The notes under the pieces: generated by a model | What the model was told of the DNA's origin: nothing | Databases searched by the model: none | The model's input: only the letters and a program-made list of their open reading frames with translations | In this document: piece by piece, positions 1,051 to 10,577 of the stretch | How positions within the stretch are numbered: position 1 is the first letter of the stretch | How the letters are laid out: each line of letters opens with the position of its first letter | DNA from: Planctomycetales bacterium | GTDB lineage: Bacteria; Planctomycetota; Planctomycetia; Pirellulales; UBA7805 | Assembly (NCBI GenBank): GCA_011772275.1 | Contig: WVZU01000166.1 | Span: 1-10,815 of the forward strand | DNA length: 10,815 bases | Reading direction: 5' to 3' | Translations under genes and position numbers: made by a program

Positions 1051-2322
1051 TTACGCGAAGAGCTCTTTGATCAGACGGCCGCCGTTGGCGATTTTCATGG
1101 GGCGGCCGTTCGTGGCGGTGAAGCGCGTGTCGAGCGAGATGCCGATGCCGTGCAGTACCGAGGCCATCAGGTCTTCGGATGTGTAGGGCTCGGTGTCGAC
1201 CGCCGTGCCGTCCGCGTTGGTCTGGCCCACCGCAATGCCGCGCTGGAAACCGGCACCGCCCACCACGACGCTCCAACTGCGGGCCCAGTGGTCGCGGCCC
1301 GTGTTGCCGTTGATCCGCGGCGTGCGGCCGAACTCGCCCATCCACACAATGGCCACATTGTCCAGCATGCCTCGCTGGTCCAGGTCGCTGACCAACGCGG
1401 CCATGGCCCGATCCATCTCGGGCAGCTTGGTTTGCAGGCGGTCGAAATTGTCACTGTGCGTGTCCCAGCCGCCCAAATTGACTTCGACGAAGGGCACACC
1501 CGTTTCCACGAGGCGGCGAGCCATCAGGCAGCCGCGGCCGAAGTTGGTGTTGCCATATTGCTCGCGGACCTCGGCCGACTCCTGGTTGACCTTAAACGCG
1601 TCCATCTGCTTGCTGCTCATCAGCCGCTGGGTCTTCTGCAGCACCTTGGCATGTTCCTGCGGTGCGCTGCCCCGGTTCTGACGTATAAAACTGGCTTCGA
1701 GCTGGTTCAGCAGTTTCACGCGATCACGAACCCGTTCGGGATCGATGTCCATCTGCAGGTCTTTGACCTGGCCGTTGGAATTGACGACGAACGGCGCATA
1801 GGCCATGCCCAGGAATCCTGGACCGGCACTGCTACCGCCGACCGAGACAAAGGGAGGGATCTCCAGCTGCGGGCGGGTCGGTTCCAGTTCATGAGCGACC
1901 ACGGCACCGTAGCTGGGGTGCTGGACGTTTGGATTGGGCACGTAACCGGTGTGCATGTAATAACGTCCCCGGTTATGGTCGGCCTCACGCGTGCTCATCG
2001 ACCTCACGATCGACATGTGGTGCATCTGCTGGGCCATCAACGGCATATGCTCGGTGATCTGCATGTCCCCGCTGGTGGCGATGGGTCGGAAGGGCCCCCC
2101 ATTGACGCTACCCGGCTTGAGGTCCCAGATGTCGATCGTGGCCGGTCCGCCGCCCATCCACAACAGGATGACTGCCTTTTGGTTCTTCTGCAGATCGGCG
2201 GCATGGGCTTGGAGGGTAGAAGCAAAATTCAAGGCCGGCACAGCCAGGGCGGAAGCGCCCGCGACATGCTTCATGAAGTGACGACGCGACATACCGTCTG
2301 GCGTACTGAAATCGAACTGCAT
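1051..2322 (-). CDS. DUF1501 protein with twin-arginine signal
   Basis: This is a 423-residue DUF1501 protein, a family of unknown function abundant in Planctomycetes and structurally related to the alkaline phosphatase/sulfatase fold. The N-terminus carries a twin-arginine export signal (SRRHFMK at 12-18, hydrophobic ASALAVPAL, likely cleavage near AHA at 39-41), so the protein is probably folded in the cytoplasm and exported. Hallmarks are in order: LLWMGGGPATIDIWDLKPG (53-71), GGWDTHSDNF (284-293), DLDQRGMLDNVAIVWMGEFGRTP (313-335) and GRDHW (342-346). The Asp, His and Glu residues of these motifs are plausible metal or catalytic ligands, but that is inference. Length and both ends are normal. 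It lies 114 bp downstream of the DUF1549/DUF1553 gene, the usual partner, and is probably co-transcribed with it. Confidence 0.93.
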   Translation of the reverse strand: MQFDFSTPDGMSRRHFMKHVAGASALAVPALNFASTLQAHAADLQKNQKAVILLWMGGGPATIDIWDLKPGSVNGGPFRPIATSGDMQITEHMPLMAQQMHHMSIVRSMSTREADHNRGRYYMHTGYVPNPNVQHPSYGAVVAHELEPTRPQLEIPPFVSVGGSSAGPGFLGMAYAPFVVNSNGQVKDLQMDIDPERVRDRVKLLNQLEASFIRQNRGSAPQEHAKVLQKTQRLMSSKQMDAFKVNQESAEVREQYGNTNFGRGCLMARRLVETGVPFVEVNLGGWDTHSDNFDRLQTKLPEMDRAMAALVSDLDQRGMLDNVAIVWMGEFGRTPRINGNTGRDHWARSWSVVVGGAGFQRGIAVGQTNADGTAVDTEPYTSEDLMASVLHGIGISLDTRFTATNGRPMKIANGGRLIKELFA

Positions 2323-2436: not shown

Positions 2437-4188
2437 TCAATGATTCAAAATAAACTCATTCGAGTTTAGCAGTACCCACCACACATCCTGGAGCGCCTCG
2501 ACAATGTTCGTTCGACGAGCCAGGGTAGTATTGGCCGCGTTGCGCTCGGTCTTTGTGGCTTCCCGGGCCAGAGCGGATCTGAACAACAACTGGATCTTGG
2601 CGGTCGGTTTTGTTGCCGGATCGCTGGCGACCCTTTGCAAAAATCCGCCCTGATCGGTGCTGGTGGCTCGCCGGATGAGATCCCCGTTCATCATCATCAG
2701 GATCTGGGGGATGGTGCCGTTGAAGGTGCTCGTTTCGTCATTCTCGTCGGTCCCAAATGCGATCACGAACTGTGCCAGCCACATCCTTTTGGCCTCCTCC
2801 TGCTGTTCGTACGCACCGCGGGTCTTGTGGGCCTCGGTCGCCACCAGCAGCGACTCGTACAGCTGCTCGGCCTGCATCTGCCGCGGATAAAAACGACTGA
2901 ATGCCGGCGGGTTCCCCCGTTGCGGGTCGTCGTCCTGGTTGGTCTTATTGAACCTGCTGGACAGCTGGTAGGGCTCGCTGAGCGTAATCCAGCGGATCAA
3001 CTGTTTGATATCGTAGCCGCCGTTCCGAAACTCTTCGGCCAACTTCTCCAGCAGTTCGGGTTGGGTGGGAGGATTGTGTGGCCCCAGATCGTCAAACGGC
3101 TTGGTGAATCCGTAGCTGAAAAAATGAGCCCACATACGATTGACCATCGCCACCGGCAGGTAGCCGGAGTCGACGACCAGGCGAGCCAGTTCCGAGCGGC
3201 GGTTGACGTCGTCGAGGAAACCGCTCCGATCCAATTCCGTGCGGGCCCCGTCGATGTCGGTGAAGACGGGGTAAGCGGCTTGGAGGACGCCGTTACGCAG
3301 CTCGTAATAGACTTCCGCCTCTTCCGGCGCCCGGCTGGGGCCCTCGTAGTCCTCGTTGTCCAGATCGATATAGGCGATGTCCTGACCATTGCCAAACCGC
3401 CGCAGGGCAACGGTCTGGCGGAAGAAGGAGTTCATCTCCCAAAATTGATTTTGCTTCCAGTTGTTGAAGGGATGGTCGTGACACTGGGTACACTGCACTC
3501 GGACTCCCAGGAAAAGCTGGGATGTCTGAGCCGTTGCCTGCACGCCATCCTCCGCCAGCTTGCCAGCCAGAAAGTTGACGGCACCGTTAAAACCAGGCTG
3601 GTCCGGTTTGTTGGTTCCGCGGGCACTTATCAATTCCGATACCATTTGGTCGTAAGATTTGTTCTGCCGAAAAGACTCCCGCAGATAATGCTGCATCCCC
3701 TGCCGACTGACCGGCGATTCGGCATCATTCCCGCCACTGCGTCCTATGAGGATGTTGGTCCAGATCGTTGTCCAGTGGCGGGCGTATTCTGTTGCGTACT
3801 GGTCCGACAACAAACGATCGACCAGGCGAATTCGTTTGTCGGCGCGCCGATCGTCAAGAAACGCGTCCAGCTCTGCGACCGAAGGGATCCGACCCAGCAC
3901 GTCCAGATAGACACGCCGACACCATTTGCCGTCGCTCGCCCGGTCCGATGGCTTGAAACCGTAGTCCGCCCAATTTTGCCGCAGCTGCTTGTTGATAAAG
4001 GCGACCGTGGGTTCGAAGTAAGCAGCGGCAGCGTCGGGTCGCTGCCGGAGGGCAGCCGCGTCCTTCCCGTTTGGCTTGGCCGCCGACAGCAGGGGAACAG
4101 CCACCAGGCTCATGATCGTGACGGCCAGCAGGGCCAACGGCCGGCGGGAGCGGTCGCGTAAGAGGTGCTCGATCGGGAGAGCCAACAT
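2437..4188 (-). CDS. Secreted DUF1549/DUF1553 protein
   Basis: This is a two-domain planctomycete protein of 583 residues from the chosen start. Residues 1-37 resemble a signal peptide: a basic segment, a hydrophobic core (LALLAVTIMSLVAVPLL) and small residues SAA. DUF1549 spans roughly 55-260 and contains CRRVYLDVLGRIPS and the conserved CTQCHDHPF (CTQCH at 233-237). DUF1553 spans roughly 325-580, from RSELARLVVD and NRMWAHFFSYG to the typical ending WVLLNSNEFILNH. Many relatives carry an extra N-terminal cytochrome-like domain (PSCyt1); this one does not. The CxxCH inside DUF1549 resembles a heme c motif but is a family feature, and heme binding is unproven. The frame stays open upstream to 4407, with other ATGs at 4245 and 4269; 4188 is preferred because it puts the signal peptide near the N-terminus. 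Function is unknown. It precedes the DUF1501 gene. Confidence 0.92.
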   Translation of the reverse strand: MLALPIEHLLRDRSRRPLALLAVTIMSLVAVPLLSAAKPNGKDAAALRQRPDAAAAYFEPTVAFINKQLRQNWADYGFKPSDRASDGKWCRRVYLDVLGRIPSVAELDAFLDDRRADKRIRLVDRLLSDQYATEYARHWTTIWTNILIGRSGGNDAESPVSRQGMQHYLRESFRQNKSYDQMVSELISARGTNKPDQPGFNGAVNFLAGKLAEDGVQATAQTSQLFLGVRVQCTQCHDHPFNNWKQNQFWEMNSFFRQTVALRRFGNGQDIAYIDLDNEDYEGPSRAPEEAEVYYELRNGVLQAAYPVFTDIDGARTELDRSGFLDDVNRRSELARLVVDSGYLPVAMVNRMWAHFFSYGFTKPFDDLGPHNPPTQPELLEKLAEEFRNGGYDIKQLIRWITLSEPYQLSSRFNKTNQDDDPQRGNPPAFSRFYPRQMQAEQLYESLLVATEAHKTRGAYEQQEEAKRMWLAQFVIAFGTDENDETSTFNGTIPQILMMMNGDLIRRATSTDQGGFLQRVASDPATKPTAKIQLLFRSALAREATKTERNAANTTLARRTNIVEALQDVWWVLLNSNEFILNH

Positions 4189-4401
4189 ACGGTTCACCAC
4201 CCTGGGAAGAATCGTTTGCCACCAGATGGGAACCATGGCCACCATGATCCCCCCCACCAAACCGTTCATCCTACGACAGCGAGGCGGCCGTTCCAACGGT
4301 CGACAACGCGGTGGGGAACAGTTCGCTAAGATCCAACGCGGCAAAGGGTGGAAATTATTCCCCAAATGCCCGACCAAAAAATGGCCCCCACCCCCGCCTT
4401 G

Positions 4402-4423
4402 GTACACCCCTCTAATGGGGTAC
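4402..4423. repeat. Short inverted repeat beside an AT-rich tract
   Basis: The arms GTAC-CCCC and GGGGTAC (one bulged A) surround a six-base loop. On the plus strand a T-rich tract (4428-4440) follows a few bases later, giving a terminator-like look. No plus-strand gene ends here, though, so it is more likely a feature of the leader in front of the DUF1549 gene. Confidence 0.35.
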
Positions 4424-4449
4424 AGAATTGTTTTATTTTAATACATATG

Positions 4450-4736
4450 TTCAATAATAATACAACAGGCGAGCTGGGAAGCCGGTTTGACTGGTTCCCT
4501 ACTCGCCTGTTGTTCGGCGGCTGCTGTGTCCAGCGAACCGCTCGTCAGGTGCCAAGCTCTCCTCTGCCTTCCTGATCTCCTCTAGCTGGTCTGGCCAACG
4601 TAAGCCTTTGTTGGCCCTGATGTTCCGCTAATTGGCACCGGCCTCTTCTTATCGCCGGCCCCGGGTCTGTGCCTGCATTCTCTGTTCCGACCCCGTCCGG
4701 CCTGCTGACTGTGGAGAATTGCCTCTTCACCACAGC
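4450..4736 (-). ncRNA. Candidate sigma-54-dependent small RNA or structured leader
   Basis: No convincing protein is encoded between the glnA terminator and the DUF1549 gene, but the minus strand looks like a structured transcript. A near-consensus sigma-54 element (4748-4762) predicts initiation near 4736. A hairpin with perfect 6-bp outer arms (4730-4735 with 4709-4714) would start at the second nucleotide. A second perfect stem of 7 bp lies at 4593-4616 (GGCCAAC with GTTGGCC, 10-base loop). The region ends with a long hairpin (4462-4513) followed by ATTATTATT. If that hairpin terminates, the product is an RNA of roughly 275-285 nt. If not, the same region is a long leader of the DUF1549 gene. 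I do not recognise a known RNA family. The call rests on by-eye promoter and structure matching. Confidence 0.35.
4462..4513 (-). terminator. Long hairpin with A/U-rich 3' tail, possible terminator
   Basis: Perfect 12-bp outer arms (4462-4473 and 4502-4513, ACAACAGGCGAG with its complement) enclose a 2x2 internal loop. An inner stem of about 9 bp with one bulged base and a TTTGA-type loop completes it. On the minus strand the stem is followed by ATTATTATT rather than a pure T-run, so termination is plausible but not typical. It could instead be an mRNA-stabilising hairpin. Confidence 0.45.
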
Positions 4737-4747
4737 TTTTTTTGACC

Positions 4748-4762
4748 GCAATCCGCGTGCCA
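4748..4762 (-). promoter_or_regulatory. Sigma-54 (-24/-12) promoter candidate behind glnA
   Basis: The minus strand reads TGGCACG-CGGA-TTGC, matching every defined core position of the sigma-54 consensus TGGCACG-N4-TTGC, with ten bases between the invariant GG and GC. It lies about 64 bp beyond the glnA terminator, points away from glnA, and predicts a start near 4736. Known sigma-54 promoters need an enhancer-binding activator such as NtrC; no activator site could be identified with confidence. Confidence 0.5.
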
Positions 4763-4825: not shown

Positions 4826-4865
4826 AAAAAAAGACCGGGCGGGCGGTCAGGCCGCCGGCCCGGTC
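4826..4865 (-). terminator. Rho-independent terminator of glnA
   Basis: A 14-bp GC-rich stem (4852-4865 with 4833-4846, one mismatch, five-base loop) is followed on the minus strand by seven T residues (4832-4826). It starts about 40 bp after the glnA stop and should separate glnA from everything downstream. Confidence 0.93.
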
Positions 4866-4906: not shown

Positions 4907-6340
<1,434 letters not shown>

Positions 6341-6551
6341 AACCAAATAGCTCCTGTTCTACTGCCAAGCGGCCATGGGCTGTTCTGAGTGCAACGGCCG
6401 GTGATTTGTTTTGCCTGGGCAAGCGCCGTCCGCGCCGGCAATAATCTCCGCTCGGCTCAAGAAAAATAGTCCTCGGTAATCCATCCCCTCCCTACGCATT
6501 CCATTCCCTACCGCCCGTCACGCGGGGCAGCCATAAAATGTCAAAAACGAG

Positions 6552-9314: not shown

Positions 9315-10097
9315 ATGACCAGTCCGCTGCTTACCAACCAACCGGCTGCCGCCGATCCTCAGCCGGAACCGCTGGCCCTGACGCCGCAGTTGCGAGACGA
9401 ACTGGCGGGGGCCAGCCAGGCGTTGGAGCAGGCGACCCCTGAGCAGATCATTGCCTGGGCGGTCGACCGATTTTTCCCGCGGCTGACGATGGCAACGGCC
9501 TTTGGCCCGGAGGGCTGTGTCATCATTTACTTGCTCTCCCGAATCCAGCCGCAGACCTACGTGTTTAACCTGGACACGGGCTACCAGTTCCAGGAGACGC
9601 TGGAGCTGCGCGATCGTCTGGCCCAAAAGTACGGCATCCTTGTCCAGCTCAAGAAGCCGGAGTTGACGGTGGCCCAATACGAAGCGAAACATGGCGGGCC
9701 GCTCTACCAGACCAACCCGGACCAGTGCTGCCTGGATCGCAAGGTCAAAGTCTTGCGTGAGGCGGTCCAGGGGATGCATGCCTGGATGAGCGGGATCCGG
9801 CGGGACCAGAGTCCCGATCGAGCCGCGGCGCCGATCGTGGGCTGGGATTCCAGATTCAACCTGGTGAAGATCAGCCCCCTGGCCAACTGGACCAAGTCGG
9901 ACGTCTGGAAGTTGATCCTCCAGGAGGGCATCCCCTACAACCGGCTCCACGACCAGGGATACCCCAGCATCGGCTGCTGGCCCTGCACCCAGTCGGTGAT
10001 GTTCGGCCAGGACGAACGAGCCGGCCGCTGGAGCGGTAGTGCGAAAACCGAGTGCGGTCTGCACGGCATGGAGTTTGAACAAGGAGGCGGCATCTAA
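9315..10097 (+). CDS. cysH: Adenylyl-sulfate (APS) reductase, CysH family
   Basis: This 260-residue enzyme of assimilatory sulfate reduction reduces activated sulfate to sulfite in the cytoplasm with electrons from thioredoxin or a similar donor. The nucleotide-binding region is visible as TAFGPEG (61-67) and FNLDTGYQFQETLELRD (84-100). Cys138-Cys139 (QCCLDRKV) and Cys221/Cys224 (SIGCWPCTQ) form the CC...CxxC set that holds a [4Fe-4S] cluster. In this family the cluster marks enzymes that use APS rather than PAPS. The catalytic cysteine is Cys247 in the C-terminal ECGLH. All key residues are present. The first 25 or so residues are Pro/Ala-rich and not conserved, and no Shine-Dalgarno is seen, so a slightly later start cannot be excluded. 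The Rrf2 gene follows 54 bp downstream, probably in the same operon. Databases may label it phosphoadenylyl-sulfate reductase. Confidence 0.93.
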   Translation: MTSPLLTNQPAAADPQPEPLALTPQLRDELAGASQALEQATPEQIIAWAVDRFFPRLTMATAFGPEGCVIIYLLSRIQPQTYVFNLDTGYQFQETLELRDRLAQKYGILVQLKKPELTVAQYEAKHGGPLYQTNPDQCCLDRKVKVLREAVQGMHAWMSGIRRDQSPDRAAAPIVGWDSRFNLVKISPLANWTKSDVWKLILQEGIPYNRLHDQGYPSIGCWPCTQSVMFGQDERAGRWSGSAKTECGLHGMEFEQGGGI

Positions 10098-10151
10098 CTG
10101 CCGGATGCTGGCGAGCAAAAACCGTCTGGCACTTGGTCTCCGAGATTGAGC

Positions 10152-10577
10152 ATGAAAATTTCTGCCAGGACTGAATATGCCTGCATTGCCGTATTGGACC
10201 TGGCGGCCCGTTACGGGTCGGGGGAACCGGCCCGCGTGCGGGACATTGCCGACGCTCATCGAATTCCCGCGCGGTTCCTGGTCCAGATTCTCCTGCAGCT
10301 GAAAACGGCCGGGCTGGTCAACAGTGTCCGCGGCGCGGCGGGTGGCTACCAGTTGATCCGGCCGCCCGAGGAGGTCACGCTGGCCGCTGTGATGGCGGCC
10401 GTGGAGGGGCACCCCGCACCGGCTGGCCAGGCGGCCACCGCCAGCTCACAGACCCGCGCTTTGCACCACGTGTGGCGGGCCGCCGCGGAAGCTCAACAGG
10501 AACTGCTGGCAGGCGTGACCCTGGCCGACCTGCTGGACCGCGCTCAAGAAACGGCCGAACCGATGTACTACATCTAA
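10152..10577 (+). CDS. Rrf2-family transcriptional regulator without cluster cysteines
   Basis: This 141-residue protein begins MKISARTEYACIAVLDLA, the standard start of Rrf2 regulators, followed by a winged helix-turn-helix (about 25-70: RVRDIADAHRIPARFLVQILLQLKTAGLVNS) and the wing GAAGGYQLIRPPEEVTL. The family includes IscR, NsrR and CymR. IscR and NsrR bind an iron-sulfur cluster through three cysteines near residues 90-106. That region here is EGHPAPAGQAATASSQ with none, and the only cysteine is Cys11. It is therefore more like CymR, which senses cysteine status through a partner protein, although a direct link is inference. The ATG at 10152 is chosen over an in-frame TTG two codons earlier because family members start at this point. 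Its place after cysH suggests control of sulfate assimilation, possibly through the dyad at 9261-9280. Confidence 0.92.
   Translation: MKISARTEYACIAVLDLAARYGSGEPARVRDIADAHRIPARFLVQILLQLKTAGLVNSVRGAAGGYQLIRPPEEVTLAAVMAAVEGHPAPAGQAATASSQTRALHHVWRAAAEAQQELLAGVTLADLLDRAQETAEPMYYI

Follow-up and report, generated by a model that had tools for sequence, protein, structure and literature searches.

Pairs of bacterial RNAs in which one counteracts the other have been described, such as the Campylobacter small RNA (sRNA) and antagonist that are reportedly called CJnc190 and CJnc180. The locus analysed here, a predicted RNA gene designated B that is located in a 10,815-nt stretch of planctomycete DNA (the window), appears to have its closest known mechanism in QrrX of Vibrio cholerae, which, according to PMC9732341, has its own promoter and Rho-independent terminator and pairs with a conserved sRNA stretch, as B is predicted to do. 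QrrX responds to a LysR-type activator, not to sigma-54, and has four sRNA targets, whereas the sites of B are arranged in tandem, its homologues occur across an order of Planctomycetota and a DUF1549 gene is often its neighbour, the effect of B on the partner sRNA (A) being a prediction. The Qrr1-type sRNAs resemble B as sigma-54-driven regulatory RNAs, but there (PMC10162802) the sigma-54-driven RNA is the regulator, whereas B looks like a decoy. The Campylobacter pair (PMC8687705) likewise consists of a trans-acting sRNA and a complementary antagonist RNA, but that antagonist is cis-encoded, whereas A and B are found at separate genome places. Finally, A or B may have been sighted before as the Rhodopirellula-1 candidate RNA motif, which a table in PMC2864571 lists for Proteobacteria and Planctomycetes with no Rfam accession. 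A table in PMC9029176 gives eight distinct sRNAs on record for the PVC group and 345 for Proteobacteria. No description of A or B, and none of an RNA-RNA circuit in Planctomycetota, appeared among the matches listed in searches of open-access papers.

B was predicted on the minus strand of the window (4450..4737, with a predicted length, terminator tail included, of about 285 nt) from its fold, its homologues and their alignment. A DNA similarity search in 57 genomes rendered mostly chance-level matches, together with three collinear ones (G001, G037 and G004), in which the homologous stretch is located upstream of a DUF1549-type gene and glnA, the gene that precedes B in the window, was not found beside it. 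These three share at least one copy of a motif, GGGGYCGG-n-AGAAGAGGC, as well as a 3' hairpin. With this motif 39 oriented loci were collected (31 further motif hits, seven loci found earlier and the window), 28 of which are followed by DUF1549 on the same strand, while in 33 a match to the sigma-54 pattern with one mismatch or none lies 5' of the first motif. L200, L203, L205 and L228, in which the sigma-54 element is missing, were dropped as not being B, and so was L215, which proved to be A. The alignments comprised 29 of the remaining 34 loci, since L202, L216, L224 and L226 gave no match to the terminator pattern and L225 was omitted. In six loci (L206, L207, L208, L227, L229 and L230) the sites and the terminator are kept next to other neighbour genes, and in L227 no sigma-54 match with up to one mismatch was found. 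A covariance model, made up of the terminator and the dyads described below and including neither the promoter nor the sites for A, detected B in 127 of the 246 genomes of the order, at a single place per genome among the matches listed, with the exception of a weak second match in G128. Having been trained on motif-selected loci, the model may favour motif-bearing B genes; homologues that lack the motif were also recovered.

The element from which transcription of B would start, TGGCACGCGGATTGC (4748..4762, minus strand; predicted start near 4736), matches TGGCACN5TTGC exactly, in agreement with the initial annotation, which had read a sigma-54 element with every core position in place. This match is by itself no better than chance, since the pattern occurs 7 times in the 3.3-Mb source genome and its reversed form 5 times, so that the genome-wide count is uninformative. 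The element rises above chance because it is conserved. For this comparison 114 of the 127 model-positive genomes were examined; one locus was too short, which left 113 loci, all picked by the model that contains no promoter. An element with at least nine of the ten core bases was found within the 200 nt upstream of B in 102 of these 113 loci (67 of them perfect), as compared to 1/113 when the other strand of these stretches was scanned. Neither the GG nor the C of GC varies in the 29 loci of the alignment. GG at -24 and GC at -12, at a fixed spacing and conserved in homologues, are the features of a sigma-54-dependent promoter, and B is almost certainly, as judged by this comparison, a conserved unit with a sigma-54 element and a terminator.

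The terminator-like hairpin is located at 4462..4513 (minus strand), followed by an A/U-rich tail (4450-4461), and corresponds to the hairpin with 12-bp arms that had been noticed in the initial annotation; its stem covaries in the 29 homologues. Of the cells of the 12-pair stem 91.1% are paired and 56 show changes on both sides (19.7 in shuffles), with a covariation score of 0.429 (0.180 in shuffles and at most 0.259 in slid controls), and none of 500 shuffles reached any of these three values. Weaker measures of the stem were the pairs changed on both sides (6), matched by 37 of the 500 shuffles, and the further pair types (20), matched by 32. The 301-nt strand of B as a whole folds beyond its shuffles (z = -5.3). 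A second hairpin, at about 4708..4736 (minus strand), had been described as beginning at the second nucleotide of the transcript; it is indeed predicted, starting at nucleotide 1 or 2, and is absent from the consensus fold of the 29 relatives. Conservation of the -24/-12 element and of the hairpins in relatives, which had been put forward as the check on that first reading, thus holds for the element and the terminator, and was not seen for the 5' hairpin. No Rfam 15 family reached its gathering score for B of the window or for L002-L004, and a permissive Rfam search of B gave sub-threshold hits only, the best being a microRNA model on the terminator (23 bits, against a threshold of 60).

The gene located 3' of B in the window encodes a DUF1549/DUF1553 protein (2437..4407, minus strand; PF07583 and PF07587; start codon uncertain, with an ATG at about 4268 as alternative) and is followed on the same strand by a DUF1501 gene (1051..2322; PF07394). 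The initial annotation had linked the RNA to this protein, and the association proved to be frequent: where 900 nt or more of downstream sequence were available, in 91 loci, DUF1549/DUF1553 follows B in 69. Such a frequency, like the 28 of 39 motif-selected loci with DUF1549 downstream, could mean that the DUF1549/DUF1553 gene is transcribed from the sigma-54 start with B as its long regulated 5' leader, the hairpin serving as an attenuator and A, paired with the leader, altering read-through or leader stability. In the window, moreover, the U-run after the terminator is interrupted, so that the terminator may leak into DUF1549. A cis-leader or riboswitch has the same gene downstream in its homologues, however, and in 22 of the 91 loci B, with homology on the promoter side and in the terminator, has no DUF1549 downstream, some of these genes preceding unrelated genes instead. 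A DUF1549 leader is therefore not the general explanation of B, and we regard this alternative, already proposed as an unusually long leader and conceivable where DUF1549 does follow, as unlikely. B is thus usually linked to a DUF1549/DUF1553 gene yet not simply its leader. In Rhodopirellula baltica, an ECF factor has been proposed as the regulator of one DUF1549/DUF1553 protein, and 41 copies each of DUF1549 and DUF1553 are given for that organism (PMC2754498).

Two sites that had been overlooked in the first reading, as had the tandem dyads (4429-4464), suggest another role for B. They are CGGGGUCGGAACAGAGAAUGCAGGC (site 1, 4671..4695) and CGGGGCCGGCGAUAAGAAGAGGCC (site 2, 4640..4663; a strict match to the motif), both on the minus strand, and each is predicted to pair with a 24-nt stretch of A at about -43 kcal/mol. 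Searched with the strict motif, the source genome gave two places only, B and contig 74 (reversed control, 0). The match in contig 74 corresponds to the reverse strand of another gene, in which GGCCTCTTCTCTGTTCCGGCCCCG is followed directly by a terminator hairpin and a T-run. This gene, A, consists of CCTCTTCTCTGTTCCGGCCCCG plus terminator (G000 contig 74, 8571-8624, minus strand; about 1570-1625 in L038) and is divergent from an inositol-monophosphatase-like gene.

The conserved stretch of A, GGCCUCUUCUCUGUUCCGGCCCCG, followed by a terminator was found in 128 of the 246 genomes of the order with a looser motif that required the terminator (reversed control, 0), once per genome except in G021, which has it twice. 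The stricter motif is also matched in 124 of these 128 genomes, a match to which B may contribute, and this gives a measure of how constant the stretch is. At least 119 stretches of named genome contigs hold a 21-nt core of A, which was the search pattern and is hence constant in this set by construction. Among the matches listed, 79 of 80 titles name planctomycete groups, the other being just 'bacterium'; a simple terminator follows the core in 104 of 119, while the other 15 are, by eye, mostly A with a different tail; and an inositol-monophosphatase-like gene lies within 4 kb of A in 63 of 104 loci, and in 61 of these it is located upstream at no more than 500 nt and oriented away from A. 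The sequence 5' of the core is variable, and sigma-70-like boxes were read in it by eye. In genomes without a strict match, A was found in 5 of 54 at up to three mismatches, and in 4 of 66 with a looser pattern plus terminator. In a draw of 392 genomes from the phylum A was found in 10, all of them among the 12 members of the same order; named records that contain the core include Gemmatales and Isosphaeraceae, and A probably extends beyond the order. No Rfam 15 match was obtained for A in L025, L027 and L029, nor any up to E 1 in a permissive search with A in L038. By sequence, A and B both have the features of trans-encoded sRNA genes, being intergenic and conserved, with their own predicted promoter and a Rho-independent terminator.

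Beyond B, a search for further targets of A in the source genome with a 16-nt core at up to one mismatch matched A alone. Exact copies of the A core in some other genomes (G001, G004, G017 and G020) belong to a different repeated element that starts with CGGAACAGAGAAGAGG, continues G-rich and has a hairpin in several of its copies (L405, L408, L412, L415, L416, L417, L418 and L419). This element may hold further sites for A or may be unrelated.

The body of B in the window gives a best duplex of -45.3 kcal/mol with the 24-nt stretch of A, and none of 1000 shuffles (-29.9 +- 2.9) was as low. Two sites are predicted in the window and two to five in most relatives; at least two were found in 94 of 102 B bodies from A-positive genomes (looser A label) and in 20 of 102 shuffled ones. 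The two genes also occur together: 108 of the 246 genomes have both, 20 have A only, 19 B only and 99 neither (Fisher p ~1e-28, uncorrected for kinship), and the same count by genus gives 61, 11, 11 and 31, respectively. Within family f15, both were found in 8 genera, A alone in 4, B alone in none and neither gene in 12, and within family f17, 14 have both, 7 B only and 6 neither. A sponge RNA is marked by greater-than-chance complementarity to the stretch with which another sRNA pairs, and on these comparisons the pairing of B with A is strongly supported as very probable.

Pairing strength tracks the presence of A only moderately. A pairing z below -2 was obtained for 85 of 102 A-positive and 5 of 12 A-negative genomes under the looser A label, and for 79 of 98 and 8 of 16 under the strict one (p = 0.011). 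Nine A-positive genomes pair weakly (looser label). Six A-negative genomes (G049, G059, G105, G216, G228 and G240) keep the terminator and dyads of B and lack a site for A, and five others (G101, G184, G007, G009 and G213) have a B with such sites; among the 16 strict A-negative genomes, the assemblies of G007, G009 and G213 are 62-66% complete, and G022, G028, G043 and G117 match the stricter motif and not A with its terminator. In G048, where A is altered, B fits its own A slightly better (-28.5) than the consensus A (-26.8), which lends weak support to the pairing. In the family f12 (L285, L286 and L287), GGAACAGAG of B occupies, on visual inspection, the loop of a short 5'-proximal hairpin.

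Since the docking sites are in tandem and complementary to A, B is probably a switchable trap for A, and we lean towards B being a free-standing non-coding RNA gene whose product is a multi-site sponge for this sRNA, induced through sigma-54. An activator, possibly bound at the tandem dyads behind the gene, would set off the sigma-54 RNA polymerase at B; transcription would yield an RNA of about 285 nt ending at the conserved terminator; its tandem sites would pair with the conserved stretch of A, encoded elsewhere with its own terminator; and A, once sequestered by the induced B, would release its targets. With a promoter, tandem sites matching a conserved part of another RNA and a terminator, B is built like a sponge RNA. 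Promoter, terminator, complementarity and co-occurrence emerge from the comparison of genomes, and the two RNAs would be expected to meet in the cell. The meaning of B is thus likely to lie in a partner RNA encoded elsewhere in the genome. The proposal that sigma-54 drives a structured RNA here, ending at a terminator that belongs to it, is supported by the conservation of both elements, and the first reading of this locus is confirmed as an observation and partly supported in its interpretation.

The direction of the effect, with B titrating A and not the reverse, carries a modest preference on our side. With reversed roles, B would regulate mRNAs, for instance through C-rich stretches such as those noted on visual inspection of several B genes, with A as its constitutive antagonist; that B without sites for A is kept in six genomes in which A was not detected would agree with this. 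In contrast, A is as widespread as B or more so (128 vs 127 of 246 genomes), its pairing stretch varies less, and 20 genomes have A with no B found, which makes the reversal quite improbable. In the B homologues L276, L277, L278, L282, L283 and L284, where the terminator and dyads are kept and A was not found, the bodies differ, C-rich stretches taking the place of the sites for A. It could also be the case that B is a sponge for a protein such as CsrA, which binds GGA motifs, and that the complementarity to A is secondary: several GGA motifs can be seen by eye in B of the window, and csrA is mentioned in PMC12316311 among the sigma-54-linked genes of Planctomycetia. Nevertheless, a motif of about 24 nt that is exactly complementary to A, in a gene that tracks A across genomes, leaves this explanation little probability.

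Sigma-54-dependent promoters require rpoN and an enhancer-binding activator, and the candidate site for such an activator at B is a pair of tandem dyads, TGTATC-N5-GATACA, 19 bp apart (4429..4464, minus strand). In the source genome this arrangement has a single match at up to three mismatches, which is the one at B; at least one match at this threshold was found in 23 of 30 relatives, some away from B, the reversed control giving six. Of the dyad hits, 20 lie no more than 50 nt behind the hairpin, as compared to 14.2 expected over all stretches together; two dyads above threshold are 19 bp apart in nine of 34 loci, two hits are 33 bp apart in L207 and L208, and several loci have none at threshold. 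We give even chances to these dyads acting as the enhancer of a sigma-54 activator. Taken across the order, a two-RNA circuit with a single-copy sRNA A of constant stretch, a single-copy decoy B switched by sigma-54, a unique tandem activator site and a tie to DUF1549/DUF1553 in most genomes is proposed tentatively, at somewhat less than even chances. If so, A with its stretch and its sigma-54-controlled partner B would offer a handle on planctomycete post-transcriptional control, B would be a concrete output for the planctomycete sigma-54 system, and both would provide a regulatory lead for the DUF1549/DUF1553 proteins, which are planctomycete and cytochrome-like.

Upstream of B in the window lies glnA (4907..6346, minus strand; PF00120 and PF03951), whose terminator (core stem 4833..4848, minus strand) stands between it and B, as had been noted. 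Since many bacteria use sigma-54 to control nitrogen metabolism, B, sitting behind glnA, could be taken for a nitrogen-regulated RNA of this locus, and so it had been. However, glnA was found beside B in none of the 30 loci that the model had found (checked as far as about 1.5 kb upstream) and in one of the 39 oriented loci, which overlap that set (about 0.1-1.5 kb upstream), the one being the window itself. An RNA belonging to a nitrogen locus would keep such a neighbour, and since the window is the single case of adjacency in the loci inspected, glnA is a bystander with no special tie to B. Furthermore, sigma-54 promoters in Planctomycetia are tied to chaperones, proteases, universal stress proteins and regulators, among others (PMC12316311). 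The nitrogen reading is consequently the least probable of all those considered, and the signal for B is perhaps stress rather than nitrogen.

Two further parts of the window may be mentioned. Adjoining the DUF1501 gene are two short frames (438-782 and 773-1345, both on the minus strand) whose ends resemble, by eye, a RelE/ParE-type toxin and an addiction-module antitoxin. On the plus strand, at 9315-10577, a PAPS-reductase-family gene is followed by an Rrf2-family regulator, and this is probably an assimilatory sulfur locus.
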